Of a stretch of 64,000 bases of DNA, positions 55,189 to 58,845 are shown one piece after another. The DNA is from Maribacter ulvicola (GTDB lineage: Bacteria > Bacteroidota > Bacteroidia > Flavobacteriales > Flavobacteriaceae). The stretch lies in NCBI RefSeq assembly GCF_900155985.1, contig NZ_FTMA01000001.1, positions 1,054,001 through 1,118,000 of the forward strand, read 5' to 3'. Numbering within the stretch: position 1 is the stretch's first letter; each line of letters begins with the position of its first letter. The position numbers were made by a program, and so were the translations under genes. The notes beneath the pieces were generated by a model that saw only the letters and a program-made list of their open reading frames with translations, searched no databases and was not told the origin of the DNA.

Positions 55189-55554
55189 ATGCAATTTCAA
55201 GATTTATTGGCTTATAAGAAGTCTTTTGCGCTTGCCATGAAGATATTTCATGCTTCAAAAAAGTTTCCTAAGGAGGAGAAATATTCTTTGACTGACCAAA
55301 TTAGACGTTCCTCTAGAAGTGTTAGCGCTAATATTGCAGAAGCATATCGTAAAAGAAATTATCCGAAGCACTTTATAAGTAAGTTGACAGATAGTGATGC
55401 GGAAAATTCAGAAACACAAACTTGGTTAGAATTTGCATTAAAATGTGAATATATTGATCAAATAACATTTGATGATTTTAAAAATAATAGTGAAGAAGTA
55501 GGTAAGCTGTTAAACTATATGATTAATAACCCAACTAAATTCGGGTCAGAATAA
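55189..55554 (+). CDS. Four-helix-bundle protein of the 23S rRNA intervening-sequence (S23/IVP) family
   Basis: 121 residues, positively charged and helical: LLAYKKSFALAMKIFHASKKFP, SLTDQIRRSSRSVSANIAEAYRKRN (the family signature) and a DSDAENSETQTWLEFALKC segment. This family includes the protein in 23S rRNA intervening sequences and the Avd accessory protein of diversity-generating retroelements; no reverse transcriptase or rRNA is nearby. Its own role is unknown; nucleic-acid binding as a multimer is an inference. Lies between 33-bp inverted repeats, and seems independent of ruvC and hemW. Confidence 0.88.
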   Translation: MQFQDLLAYKKSFALAMKIFHASKKFPKEEKYSLTDQIRRSSRSVSANIAEAYRKRNYPKHFISKLTDSDAENSETQTWLEFALKCEYIDQITFDDFKNNSEEVGKLLNYMINNPTKFGSE

Positions 55555-55598: not shown

Positions 55599-56732
55599 AT
55601 GAGCGGAATCTACATTCACATCCCATTTTGCAAGCAAGCTTGTCACTATTGCGACTTTCATTTTTCTACCACTATGGGGAAGAAAGAAGCGATGGTGAAT
55701 GCATTATGTAAAGAGATAGAACTCCGTAAAGGCGAGTTTTCTGGAGAAACTGTTGCTACCATTTATTTTGGTGGTGGTACCCCGTCAGTTTTAAAAACTA
55801 CGGAAATTGAGCAGTTGATACGTACGGTTCGGGAACATTATGATATTGTAGACGATCCGGAGATTACTTTAGAGGCGAATCCTGATGATTTGTCCGAAGA
55901 GAAAATACTGCAACTGGCAGCTAGCCCTATAAATCGCTTAAGTATAGGGATTCAATCTTTTTTTGAAGAAGATTTAAAGTTGATGAACAGAGCGCATAAT
56001 GCTCTGGAAGCAGAAAAATGTTTGCAATTGGCGAGTGCGAATTTCGATAATATTTCGATTGACTTGATCTACGGAATGCCCAATATGACTTTAAAACGTT
56101 GGAAGCAGAATATTGATAAGGCTCTTGGTTTTAATATTCCGCATATCTCTAGTTATGCTCTAACGGTTGAGCCAAAAACAGCACTGGCTAAATTTGTGGA
56201 GAAAGGATTGATCACACCGGCATTGGATGAAGAAACTCAGGAGCATTTCAACCTGTTGAACGAGATTTTGCTAGCTGAAGGATTTGATTGCTACGAAATA
56301 TCCAATTTTGGAAAACCTGGGTATTACTCTAAAAACAATTCCGCCTATTGGCAGCAGAAAAAATATATAGGTATTGGTCCGTCCGCACATTCATTTGATG
56401 GTGTGCAACGTGGGTGGAACATTAATAATAATCCTAAGTATATTAAATCCATAGAACAAAACATTTTACCTATGGAAGTTGAGGTGCTCTCTTCAACCGA
56501 CAAATATAATGAGTATGTAATGACTGGCTTACGGACTATCTGGGGCGTATCCTTGTCTAGGATAGCAAACGAATTCGGACCTAAGTACAAAGAGTACGCA
56601 CTTATGCAAGCCGATAAATTTATTGAAGAGCATTTGCTTTTTGTAGATGGAGACATGCTTAAAACCACTAAAAAAGGTATGTTTTTAGCCGACGGCATCG
56701 CTGCAGATTTGTTTATGGTGAATTTGAAATAG
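55599..56732 (+). CDS. hemW: HemW-type radical SAM protein (haem chaperone; coproporphyrinogen-III-oxidase-like)
   Basis: Radical SAM protein with the cluster motif CKQACHYCDF (C11, C15, C18) and YFGGGTPSVL. HemW C-terminal region: YWQQKKYIGIGPSAHSF and NEYVMTGLRTIWGVSL. 377 residues. Family members were long called HemN-like but bind haem and lack the oxygen-independent coproporphyrinogen oxidase activity, so the haem chaperone name fits better. The leader is inside the right repeat of the S23-type cassette. Confidence 0.92.
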   Translation: MSGIYIHIPFCKQACHYCDFHFSTTMGKKEAMVNALCKEIELRKGEFSGETVATIYFGGGTPSVLKTTEIEQLIRTVREHYDIVDDPEITLEANPDDLSEEKILQLAASPINRLSIGIQSFFEEDLKLMNRAHNALEAEKCLQLASANFDNISIDLIYGMPNMTLKRWKQNIDKALGFNIPHISSYALTVEPKTALAKFVEKGLITPALDEETQEHFNLLNEILLAEGFDCYEISNFGKPGYYSKNNSAYWQQKKYIGIGPSAHSFDGVQRGWNINNNPKYIKSIEQNILPMEVEVLSSTDKYNEYVMTGLRTIWGVSLSRIANEFGPKYKEYALMQADKFIEEHLLFVDGDMLKTTKKGMFLADGIAADLFMVNLK

Positions 56733-56744
56733 TATAAAACGCAC

Positions 56745-57205
56745 TGTCAGTTCGAGTGATTTTTTATTGAAGTGAAACGGGAATAACAAATTGTATCGAG
56801 AACAGGTTTGGAACACGAATCCCTCACGTTTTTACGAAAACTTCTTCTTTGCAAGATTTGGTAATTCGTCATATTCTCCTGCAATAAGCGCTCTTTTCTT
56901 TCCTTGTGACAACTTCTTTATACGTTTTTCGGTTTCTATTGCCATATTTAGGTCAGTGAATTCACAATAAAAGGCGAGAGTGACAGGTCTTCTTTTACTT
57001 GTGTAGCTGTCCTTATATTTTCCTGATTGGTGCGATTCTAACCTTTGAATTAGGTTAGAGGTAATACCTGTGTAAAAAGTGTTGTCGGCACATTCTAAAA
57101 TGTAAACGTAGTAAGTGATCACCTTTTTAATTTACGATTTAGATAGTAACAAATGAGTTCTCGATACAAATTTCTTCGTGCCTCAGAAATTCACTCGAAG
57201 TGACA
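56745..57205. mobile_element. Palindrome-ended GIY-YIG element, copy 1
   Basis: 461-bp unit. Left end TGTCAGTTCGAGTG (56745-56758), right end CACTCGAAGTGACA (57192-57205): 14-bp inverted termini with one mismatch. A second, perfect 13-bp inverted pair lies inside: TTGTATCGAGAAC (56791-56803) and GTTCTCGATACAA (57157-57169). Between them is one GIY-YIG gene on the minus strand. Equal in length to copy 2 and separated from it by 45 bases. Confidence 0.8.
56832..57122 (-). CDS. Single-domain GIY-YIG nuclease, copy 1
   Basis: 96 residues that are almost entirely the GIY-YIG domain. YYVYILECADNTFYTGITSN shows the YVY / YTG version of the GIY-YIG motif; the Arg of LIQRLESHQ and Glu of MAIETEKRIKK are the expected catalytic residues. 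No extra DNA-binding domain. 87 of 96 residues match copy 2. Family members of this size (YhbQ/UPF0213-like) are usually standalone; here the gene lies inside a palindrome-ended element, so a role in moving or cutting that element is a plausible inference. Confidence 0.88.
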   Translation of the reverse strand: MITYYVYILECADNTFYTGITSNLIQRLESHQSGKYKDSYTSKRRPVTLAFYCEFTDLNMAIETEKRIKKLSQGKKRALIAGEYDELPNLAKKKFS

Positions 57206-57250
57206 TGGGTACTTGAAATAATCCATTTACAAGGGGTAATAAAAACGTGT

Positions 57251-57711
57251 TGTCAGTTCGAGTGATTTTTTATTGAAGTGAAACGGAAATTAAAAATTGT
57301 ATCGAGAACAGGTTTGGAACACGCAAGCTTCTCGCTTTTACGAAAACTTCTTTTTTGCAAGATTTTGTAATTCGTCATATTCTCCAGTAATAAGCGCTCT
57401 TTTCTTAGCTTTTGACCACTTTTTAATACGCTTTTCTGTTTCTATTGCCATATTTGGGTCAGTGAATTCACAATAAAAGGCGAGAGTTACTGGTCTTCTT
57501 TTGTCTGTGTAGCTGTCCTTATATTTTCCTGATTGGTGCGATTCTAACCTTTGAGTTAGGTTAGAGGTAATACCTGTGTAAAAAGTCTTGTCGGCACATT
57601 CTAAAATGTAAACGTAGTAAGTGATCACCTTTTCAATTTACGATTTAGATGGTAACAAATGAGTTCTCGATACAAATTTTCTCGTACCTCAAAAATTCAC
57701 TCGAAGTGACA
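57251..57711. mobile_element. Palindrome-ended GIY-YIG element, copy 2
   Basis: 461 bp with the same termini (57251-57264 and 57698-57711) and the same internal pair. It begins 506 bases after copy 1 begins, and the 45-base gap between them recurs, nearly identical, between copies 3 and 4. This points to amplification of element plus flank, not to independent insertions. Confidence 0.8.
57338..57628 (-). CDS. Single-domain GIY-YIG nuclease, copy 2
   Basis: 96 residues with the same motifs as copy 1 (YYVYILECADKTFYTGITSN; ETEKRIKKWSKAKK). The nine differences are spread over the protein and leave the motif residues unchanged, so both copies could be active; the sequence difference also shows the duplication is not brand new. 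No frameshift or stop. Its neighbours are only element sequence. Function as for copy 1. Confidence 0.88.
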   Translation of the reverse strand: MITYYVYILECADKTFYTGITSNLTQRLESHQSGKYKDSYTDKRRPVTLAFYCEFTDPNMAIETEKRIKKWSKAKKRALITGEYDELQNLAKKKFS

Positions 57712-57757
57712 TGAGTACTTGAAACAATCTGTTTGCCGAAGTTGTAGTAATACGCAT

Positions 57758-57904
57758 TGTCAGTTCGAGTGATTTTTTATTGAAGTGAAACAGAAATTAA
57801 AAATTGTATCGAGAACAGGTTTGGAACACGCAAGCTTCTCGATACCCTCCTCAATGGCGGGCAGGTAAATTTTCTCGTGCCTCAGAAATTCACTCGAAGT
57901 GACA
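57758..57904. mobile_element. Gene-less derivative of the GIY-YIG element, copy 3
   Basis: 147 bp with complete outer termini (57758-57771 and 57891-57904) but no nuclease gene. The left part joins directly to the right part near CTTCTCGATAC (57836-57845), where the two ends of the full element share TTCTCG, and 21 unrelated bases (57846-57866) are inserted. It resembles a MITE-like remnant that would need a nuclease in trans. Confidence 0.75.
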
Positions 57905-57949
57905 TGGGTACTTGAAATAATCTATTTACAAGAGGTAATAAAAACGTGT

Positions 57950-57990
57950 TGTCAGTTCGAGTGTTTTCTGCAAGAAAATGTATCGAGAAC
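57950..57990. repeat. Solo element end, REP-like hairpin (copy 4)
   Basis: Starts with the same TGTCAGTTCGAGTG and includes TTTTCT-gca-AGAAAA and ATCGAGAAC, giving an imperfect hairpin closed by GTTC (57955-57958) and GAAC (57987-57990). There is no right end. The pattern is that of an extragenic palindromic repeat. Confidence 0.7.
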
Positions 57991-58098
57991 AGACTAGGAA
58001 CACGAATATTCACCTCTTCTAGAATCCTTCGAAATAACCGCTCAAAAAGTTGTAATTTTCTTATCTCAAAGCTACTATGTAATTTGAGGCCAAATACA

Positions 58099-58845
58099 AT
58101 GAAGACTACCATAACCCACAATGCTATCCAGTATAAAATTGACCTATCTAAACCATTGGATATTTCAATACCAATTACCAGTAAAAAAGTCAATGTAAAC
58201 GCTTGGTATATTGATGCGCCCAAGATAGAGCCGCATCGGGAAAAAGATTTTACGGGGAGCGTTCCAGCAGGTGCTAGTACTAATTTTTATGATATTTCAT
58301 TTAATCCGCATGCACATGGTACGCATACGGAGTGTGTGGGGCATATATCTGCAGCGCATCAATCTGTAAATCAGCATTTACAGCAGTTTTTCTTTTTGGC
58401 TGAGGTCATTACCATTACACCATCTGAAGTACAAGGAGACTTGGTAATTACAAAAGATCAACTAGAAAAAGCACTGGGCAGTAAAACACCAACGGCATTA
58501 GTCATAAGAACGCTTCCGAATGAAGCATCAAAACGAAAAAGACAGTATTCACACACCAACCCGCCATACATCTTAGAAGATGCTATGGTATTTGTTAGAG
58601 CACTTGGTATAGCTCATTTATTGGTAGACTTGCCATCTGTAGACAAGGAAAAGGATGACGGCAAGCTTTTGGCACACAAGGCATTTTGGAACTTTAATGA
58701 AGAGGTGAGATTAAATGCTACCATCACAGAATTTATTTATGTTCCAGATTCTATCGCCGATGGTTCGTATTTTTTAAACTTGCAGGTAGCACCTTTTGAA
58801 AATGATGCTAGCCCAAGCAGACCAGTACTTTATAAAATAGAATAG
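58099..58845 (+). CDS. Cyclase family protein (kynurenine formamidase-like)
   Basis: The frame opens earlier, inside the solo repeat, but the start is the ATG at 58099 giving MKTTITHNAIQYKIDLSKPL. Metal-site motif HAHGTHTECVGHI (the family HxGTHxD/E) and LLVDLPSVDKEKDDGKLLAH. About 248 residues. The fold supports metal-dependent hydrolases such as kynurenine formamidase; no tryptophan-pathway neighbours are present, so the substrate is open. It is followed two bases later by the DUF4260 gene. Confidence 0.82.
   Translation: MKTTITHNAIQYKIDLSKPLDISIPITSKKVNVNAWYIDAPKIEPHREKDFTGSVPAGASTNFYDISFNPHAHGTHTECVGHISAAHQSVNQHLQQFFFLAEVITITPSEVQGDLVITKDQLEKALGSKTPTALVIRTLPNEASKRKRQYSHTNPPYILEDAMVFVRALGIAHLLVDLPSVDKEKDDGKLLAHKAFWNFNEEVRLNATITEFIYVPDSIADGSYFLNLQVAPFENDASPSRPVLYKIE

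Follow-up and report, generated by a model that had tools for sequence, protein, structure and literature searches.

Our preferred interpretation of the array between hemW and a cyclase gene in Maribacter ulvicola is that it is a REP system of the CGTC type, with a single-domain GIY-YIG nuclease as its dedicated enzyme. We put the probability of this interpretation at roughly 60%, and it is important to emphasize that its parts differ in their support. The association between the nuclease and the repeats is strong. The binding of the repeats by the nuclease, their nicking, the place of the nick and the copying of the repeats are inferred; there is no biochemistry, and mobilisation has not been shown. 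With these caveats, a widespread class of scattered palindromic repeats whose enzyme has been missing now has a strong candidate in this nuclease. The analysis thereby names an enzyme family for CGTC REPs, with a hairpin type for each branch and species in which the proposal can be tested.

The array and its repeat unit

By "the window" we mean the whole stretch of 64,000 nucleotides that was analysed. According to the original prediction, four copies of one element lie between hemW and the cyclase gene, and this is the case: there are two full copies, one gene-less copy and one lone unit (Table 1). The full copies were predicted to span 461 bp each and to contain an intact 96-residue GIY-YIG reading frame, as is borne out by the ORFs and their matches to PF01541 (8.4e-16 and 1e-17); the start-to-start spacing of these copies is 506 bp. 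The 14-bp ends do form an inverted repeat, but not a perfect one, as position 6 is mismatched (TGTCAGTTCGAGTG / CACTCGAAGTGACA). The inner 13-bp pair (TTGTATCGAGAAC / GTTCTCGATACAA) is indeed perfect. The repeated element is thus real, but its basic repeat has to be corrected to a half-element of approximately 40-70 bp, which is a tagged hairpin. Two half-elements face each other, with or without a gene between them, and the gene, where present, separates the loop of the gene-less form from its right arm. A search of Rfam at gathering scores gave no match in positions 56500-58200.

Table 1. Positions in the window of the array's elements, genes and repeat units, and of the neighbouring genes
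Feature	Position	Strand	Remarks
Full element, copy 1	56745..57205	.	461 bp; GIY-YIG gene framed by two facing tagged hairpins
Type A REP unit (TGTCAG...GAGAAC), copy 1	56745..56803	+	
GIY-YIG nuclease gene, copy 1	56832..57122	-	96 aa, GTG start, NLAKKKF tail; ORF; PF01541 match
Type A REP unit (TGTCAC...GAGAAC), copy 1	57157..57205	-	
Full element, copy 2	57251..57711	.	461 bp
Type A REP unit, copy 2	57251..57309	+	
GIY-YIG nuclease gene, copy 2	57338..57628	-	96 aa, GTG start; ORF; PF01541 match; predicted fold
Type A REP unit, copy 2	57663..57711	-	
Gene-less copy 3, REPIN-like	57758..57904	.	147 bp; facing units 57758-57816 (+) and 57835-57904 (-)
Single type A unit	57950..57990	+	perfect 7-bp inner hairpin
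hemW, left neighbour	55599..56732	+	outside element; name from first reading of the sequence and from the protein's look, no family search
Cyclase-family gene, right neighbour	58099..58845	+	outside element; name from first reading of the sequence

Just upstream of hemW, at 55189-55554, there is a four-helix-bundle gene (23S rRNA IVP / bAvd-like). By eye, it is followed by CAGT-rich repeats, and similar repeats fill the spacers of the C13 array described below (window 55189-55554; L068 2480-2660).

The unit in the array consists of YGTCA, N1N2, TCGAGTG, a variable hairpin, GTATCGAGA and N2'N1'. Such type A units have a short outer stem, an internal loop and a longer inner stem. A second type, B, occurs beside genes of a second nuclease branch and has the form TGTCA-NNN-[CT]GAGC-2 or 3 bases-GTCGA-N'N'N'. 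Constant in both types are a GAG and, on the opposite side, a TCGA, whose two GA steps could pair as tandem sheared G.A, a motif described in DNA structures. Among 349 distinct units, N1:N1' is paired in 330 (shuffled mean 166, maximum 194) and N2:N2' in 343 (shuffled mean 314, maximum 320). In type A, the four pairs of the outer stem are preserved in 454, 467, 455 and 442 of 492 units, as compared to shuffled means of 410, 422, 378 and 222, and those of type B in 79, 78, 76 and 69 of 84 units, with shuffled means of 43, 37, 22 and 24. Type A inner stems (n=373) average 6.0 bp, versus 2.1 bp in shuffled and 3.2 bp in half-swapped units. The stems therefore covary, and the hairpins are under selection. 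In terms of folding energy, a 125-nt stretch with one gene-less copy has a z of -5.06 relative to shuffles and the 147-bp copy in the window a z of -3.46 (1 of 200 shuffles was as good). Single units alone fold weakly (z from +0.5 to -2.6), although the coordinates used for L318 in this test missed the unit.

In the 4.5-Mb genome to which the window belongs (G000), 45 sequences match the 21-base end pattern with at most 3 mismatches, 7 of them inside the array, and the reversed control pattern has no match in this genome. Many of the 45 belong to gene-less copies of about 120 bp, including an array on contig C13 in which ten such copies lie 303-389 bp apart; the copy at C5:691470 is decayed. 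We considered whether the C13 array might be integron-like and dropped the idea by eye, as the spacers contain other repeats but no clear cassette genes.

Neither nuclease in the window matched a family of NCBIfam or PHROGs, and the nearest named relatives are from Maribacter. A match of the first protein to a type IV Cas5 model (PADLOC, 0.0085) is weak, and we judged it to be due to chance. The predicted structure (pLDDT 87.6, pTM 0.76) is closest to UPF0213 (1zg2, 5.4e-6), followed by 1ywl (1.4e-3) and Slx1 (6seh, 3.7e-3). Residues Y7, Y17, R27 and E65 are invariant in 27 sequences, which fulfils the requirement of PF01541 for Tyr, Tyr, Arg and Glu; we take these to be the catalytic residues of the GIY-YIG nuclease. 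A third GIY-YIG gene in the same genome (L004 / L073, G000:C14:78155-78367) has an LxECxNxTH tail, and units of types A and B are both absent up to a distance of 350 bp; by eye, there are GGCTACGCTC-like repeats in its flanks.

Association of repeat units with nuclease genes

We scanned 84,980 species for relatives of the nuclease, kept the best 80 of 110, and counted a gene as flanked where a unit lies within 300 bp of it. Units are found on both sides of 71 of these 80 genes and on at least one side of 77. For control windows of the same size in the same loci, the corresponding numbers are 81 (1.5%) and 570 of 5370, and for other ORFs of at least 80 aa in these loci they are 3 and 37 of 171. 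The unit pattern occurs 547 times in the 472,826 bp of the 80 loci, but only twice in dinucleotide shuffles. The nearest units of these best 80 of 110 relatives face each other in 48 cases, are back to back in 12 and point in the same direction in 11, with one or both missing in 9. The two ends differ in the branch that includes the window's genes (branch A, see below): GTCAC is carried by the nearest unit upstream of the gene in 48 of 67 cases, and GTCAG by the nearest one downstream in 58 of 69. On the basis of neighbouring genes, the same 80 fall into 36 groups that have no such gene in common.

Some caveats apply to these counts. L154 is included among the 80 genes, some genes are present twice under different locus ids (e.g., L247 and L308), and L001 and L002 resolve to the same copy in the phylum-wide analysis below. 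The C-termini of L276, L291, L342, L352 and L368 resemble, by eye, translated repeat units, so the repeats may overlap the end of the gene there and be missed by the counting rule.

Flanking units might also arise if dense REPs simply gather at any small intergenic gene, by chance or through a preference in insertion. This would fit with the densest locus, which holds up to 30 units in 6.3 kb, and with the 570 control windows that have a unit on at least one side. However, it does not account for units on both sides at a frequency so far above the 1.5% of the controls, nor for YazA-like genes without units or the matching of types inside one genome (both described below), and we regard it as very improbable. 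The original prediction drew an analogy to REP/RAYT systems with a GIY-YIG enzyme in the place of the transposase. The flanks on both sides support this analogy, as do the matching of branch and type, the co-occurrence in genomes and the absence of a Y1 transposase from the window's own genome.

To compare repeat types with nuclease branches, we used a profile (A1) made from 27 proteins, which matched 202 of 299 Flavobacteriaceae genomes at 1e-6. Its matches comprise a high-scoring group that ends in NLAKKKF (branch A) and a lower-scoring group (branch B). We added 39 regions, mostly of branch B, and excluded L274, which has no nuclease; L003 and L007 had no HMM match, and L007 again lacked one in the phylum-wide analysis below. 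The 104 branch A genes are associated with type A in 95 cases, with both types in 2 and with no unit in 7, while the 43 branch B genes have type B in 33 cases, type A in 2 and none in 8. Three further lower-scoring genes have no unit. In a tree of 243 proteins (3 of 246 were too short), the four repeat labels need 24 changes, as opposed to 112 when shuffled, and none of 200 shuffles was as low, although the tree rests on a short alignment and leaves 118 of its 226 inner branches open. The C-terminal tails in the KW-KK group give a similar picture: NLAKKKF-like tails go with 97 A, 1 B, 1 C and 4 without a unit, LxECxNxTH-like tails with 25 B, no A and 5 without, and other tails with 5 A, 18 B, 1 C and 15 without (Fisher p 3e-25, kinship ignored). 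Four genomes (G048, G166, G241 and G295) contain both branches, and in the regions examined every gene is accompanied by the type of its own branch; the branch B gene of G249 has no unit. Thus, the repeat type follows the nuclease branch. Kinship inflates these tests, and none of them is phylogenetically corrected except for the tree count. At L385, upstream of a cysM-like gene (named by eye) in genome G027, a type B left unit faces a type A right unit as a hybrid pair; at this site in G000 and G031, both units are of type A.

The association extends to whole genomes. Of the 47 genomes with branch A among the 299, 46 contain type A tags, as do 90 of the 252 without this branch (odds ratio 83). 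Taking branch B genomes as those with a profile score of about 110 bits or more among the matches listed, type B tags occur in 67 of 69 with branch B and in 102 of 230 without it (odds ratio 42), and the crosswise odds ratios are 3.9 and 4.4. One or two tags in a genome can be the nuclease gene's own flanks. At least three type A tags are present in 41 of 47 genomes with branch A versus 49 of 252 without, and at least three type B tags in 64 of 69 versus 72 of 230 for branch B, again among the matches listed. We also looked for ends without a nuclease, whose wide occurrence had been named as a potential refutation. At least 10 type A tags are found in 20 of the 252 genomes without branch A (e.g., 84 in G213, 55 in G237 and 32 in G229), which argues against a strict link. 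The units in these genomes are readable as relics, though this has not been shown.

In principle, an HUH transposase of the Y1/RAYT type, or another transposase elsewhere in the genome, could move the repeats with the nuclease as a mere passenger, and Y1 transposases do exist in 10 of the 36 genomes of the genus. However, none of the 26 Y1 loci of the genus has a unit within 450 bp, and G000 has no match to PF01797. We therefore rejected a RAYT as the mover of the repeats in G000 and give little credence to this explanation in general, with the limitation that other transposase classes were outside the search.

A phylum-wide set of 90 loci was picked by PF01541 score, ignoring flanks, and split by C-terminal motif. 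The 28 KW-KK loci have type B in 15 cases, A in 5, C in 2 and no unit in 6, and the 14 NPxW loci have type C in 5 and, by rule, none in 9. There is no unit at 18 of 19 YazA/YhbQ-like loci (type B at 1) or at 28 of the 29 other loci (type C at 1). In control windows from 246 loci, any unit was present in 278 of 3056.

In another branch of single-domain GIY-YIG genes, 25 of 29 loci include a tRNA gene, mostly no more than about 200 bp away, as compared to 1 of 60 loci for other branches; the first count covers 28 of the 29 other loci above plus L376, and the second 60 of the remaining 61. The tRNA-linked loci are L298, L304, L324, L327, L334, L341, L343, L345, L349, L357-L362, L365, L367, L370, L372, L374, L375, L377, L378, L380 and L381. 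At L298, the tRNA 3' end is seemingly repeated after the gene (by eye), and the gene of L321 lies at RNase P RNA (Rfam RF00010). Two tandem arrays of this tRNA-linked branch have equal-scoring GIY-YIG matches, five of them every 450 bp in L381 (G556:C1:119000-123600) and three every 317 bp in L327 (G456:C1:1732381-1736227).

It is conceivable that single-domain GIY-YIG proteins form a superfamily of hairpin-guided mobility enzymes, in which some branches spread CGTC-type REPs in Bacteroidota and Proteobacteria, each with its own hairpin type and by a second route of REP spread that is free of transposases, and others are located at tRNA or RNase P genes. We hold this broader idea only tentatively, at somewhat less than even odds.

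Mobility and a possible mechanism

We were able to read the hemW-cyclase site in 30 of the 36 genomes of the genus (35 have hemW). Units are present there in 12 of the 30, with one to thirteen each, and the nuclease gene in 8, with 10 copies that all have facing units. A fixed locus without termini would have counted against the link. In these 8 Maribacter genomes the gene is indeed at one fixed locus, but the termini accompany all 10 copies, so the link between gene and termini stands. The gene seems to move rarely in Maribacter. In G000, the two copies are sisters of each other, and the same holds for G010, which implies separate duplications. Neither at the hemW site nor at the cysM-like site (17 genomes) could we resolve a clean empty-site junction or a target duplication, as the flanks are too diverged.

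All ten gene copies at the hemW site are intact, with a median dN/dS of 0.07 (36 usable of 45 pairs), so the gene is under purifying selection. Such strong selection at a fixed locus, along with an Slx1-like fold, might indicate a housekeeping role, in which the nuclease resolves or trims REP cruciforms, is kept by REP-rich hosts and copies nothing. This possibility would leave unexplained why the gene lies between units at many unrelated loci, and we consider it distinctly unlikely. Another rival is homing. GIY-YIG homing endonucleases are known, and the gene could be a parasite of an older REP family, cutting gene-less REPIN pairs so that repair copies the gene between the units while the REPs themselves are not spread. 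Homing is favoured by the position of the gene between the loop and right arm of the gene-less form, by gene-less pairs at the same hemW site in G027 and by the existence of REP-rich genomes without the nuclease. However, homing alone requires neither that facing units of the gene's own type flank it nearly always nor that REP number follows the presence of the nuclease, and we regard it as unlikely. Homing into older REPINs and housekeeping at REP cruciforms are the main rivals as to mechanism.

If the nuclease is instead the dedicated enzyme of the repeats, as we prefer, we propose the following mechanism. Two facing tagged hairpins frame either the nuclease gene, giving the full element, or a short loop, giving the REPIN-like copies. 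Each nuclease would recognise hairpins of the type that belongs to it, most likely in single-stranded or extruded form, by contacts with the outer stem and with the internal loop that contains the conserved GAG...TCGA, and its C-terminal tail is a candidate for the element that confers specificity. It would then nick the DNA at the YGTCA tag or close to it. The cut hairpin strand would, rarely, give rise to new copies elsewhere by way of host repair or ligation, with the gene itself mostly inherited in place. We invoke the host here because GIY-YIG enzymes cleave DNA by hydrolysis and no joining or transfer of strands is known for them.

Several points weigh against our preferred reading, namely this lack of known strand-transfer chemistry, the lack of a resolved insertion junction, target duplication or empty site, the 20 of 252 genomes that are rich in type A despite lacking branch A, the weak folding of single units and, in the phylum-wide set, the 6 of 28 KW-KK and 9 of 14 NPxW loci with no unit by rule. 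If the reading is nonetheless true, repeats can be spread by a small structure-selective nuclease and host repair, without a transposase, and a function could be assigned to many genes that carry no more than the annotation 'GIY-YIG nuclease family protein' or 'excinuclease ABC subunit C'.

Comparison with known enzymes and repeats

The UPF0213 / YazA / YhbQ proteins (1zg2, 1ywl) have the fold and size of the window nuclease, but YazA/YhbQ-like genes, unlike it, are without flanking units in 18 of 19 loci. Slx1 (6seh and others) also has this fold and is a structure-selective GIY-YIG enzyme for branched DNA. As far as we know, it acts with Slx4 and has no tie to repeats.

REPs have been divided into two super-families, GTAG and CGTC (Di Nocera et al. 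2013, PMC3733652). In the portion of that paper available to us, CGTC REPs are described in five phyla and 'apparently lack a dedicated transposase'; their carriers include A. lipoferum, S. meliloti, N. aromaticivorans and the Neisseriae (dRS3). The same portion gives their form as an unpaired CGTC/TGTC/CCTC tag at one end, a stem of 8-9 bp and a loop of 4-5 nt, mostly in head-to-head dimers (PMC3733652).

We took 19 of 60 matches in a plasmid collection, chosen for taxonomic spread. In Methylobacterium bullatum, CCTCATCCTGAGG...CCTCGAAGGAG units lie on both sides of the nuclease gene; a type-B-like repeat in Sphingomonas parapaucimobilis was recognised only by eye, and the Cupriavidus locus has no repeat at the nuclease gene. 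Of the remaining 16 loci, 10 satisfy the rule for units on both sides, as compared to 4 of 81 control windows. Among these loci are 14 with NPxW genes, a third branch that is mainly proteobacterial in our sample; at 9 of the 14, classical CGTC REPs lie to either side of the gene: Azospirillum lipoferum, Rhizobium CIAT894, Sinorhizobium meliloti, Neisseria gonorrhoeae, Aeromonas caviae, two Shinella, Sphingobium and Neorhizobium. Methylobacterium aquaticum is the tenth locus with both sides, and units are confined to one side in Photobacterium and Rhizobium tumorigenes. Related repeats are visible by eye only in Novosphingobium, Planktothrix and Spirosoma, and the Sphingomonas paeninsulae locus has none. 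Classical CGTC repeats thus enclose a GIY-YIG gene in A. lipoferum, S. meliloti and N. gonorrhoeae. The A. lipoferum gene is placed between sufB and sufC and that of S. paeninsulae between rnc and era (L439, L452), which looks like insertion into gene clusters.

We found no paper that couples GIY-YIG proteins with REPs or REPINs, in a search of open-access literature without preprints in which broad queries covered the best-ranked matches. The closest analogs in organization are REPtrons (RAYT/TnpA-REP, GTAG REPs and REPINs), in which, as far as the available parts of the sources go, inverted REPs likewise frame one gene, gene-less REP pairs are dispersed and the enzyme is matched to the repeat (PMC3733652, PMC6006769). 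The REPtron enzyme, however, is an HUH tyrosine transposase and its tag is GTAG, while here the enzyme is GIY-YIG (PF01541) and the tag YGTCA, so neither of these two REPtron criteria is met.

Types A and B have the end tag, palindromic stem, facing dimers and dispersed copies in common with CGTC REPs, as far as these are described in the accessible part of the source (PMC3733652). The tag criterion is met by types A and B (YGTCA) and by the NPxW loci (CGTC), and that of head-to-head dimers by the 48 of 80 facing pairs (best 80 of 110) and the gene-less pairs. The stem and loop sizes are met by the NPxW-linked repeats only, and not by the type A units of the window. Types A and B differ from CGTC REPs in their internal loop with GAG...TCGA, and type A also in its long, variable inner stem. 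Moreover, CGTC REPs as published, in the part of the source available, have no dedicated enzyme (PMC3733652), whereas here a GIY-YIG gene lies between the repeats. The units of the window widen the CGTC class, lying outside its published stem and loop sizes.
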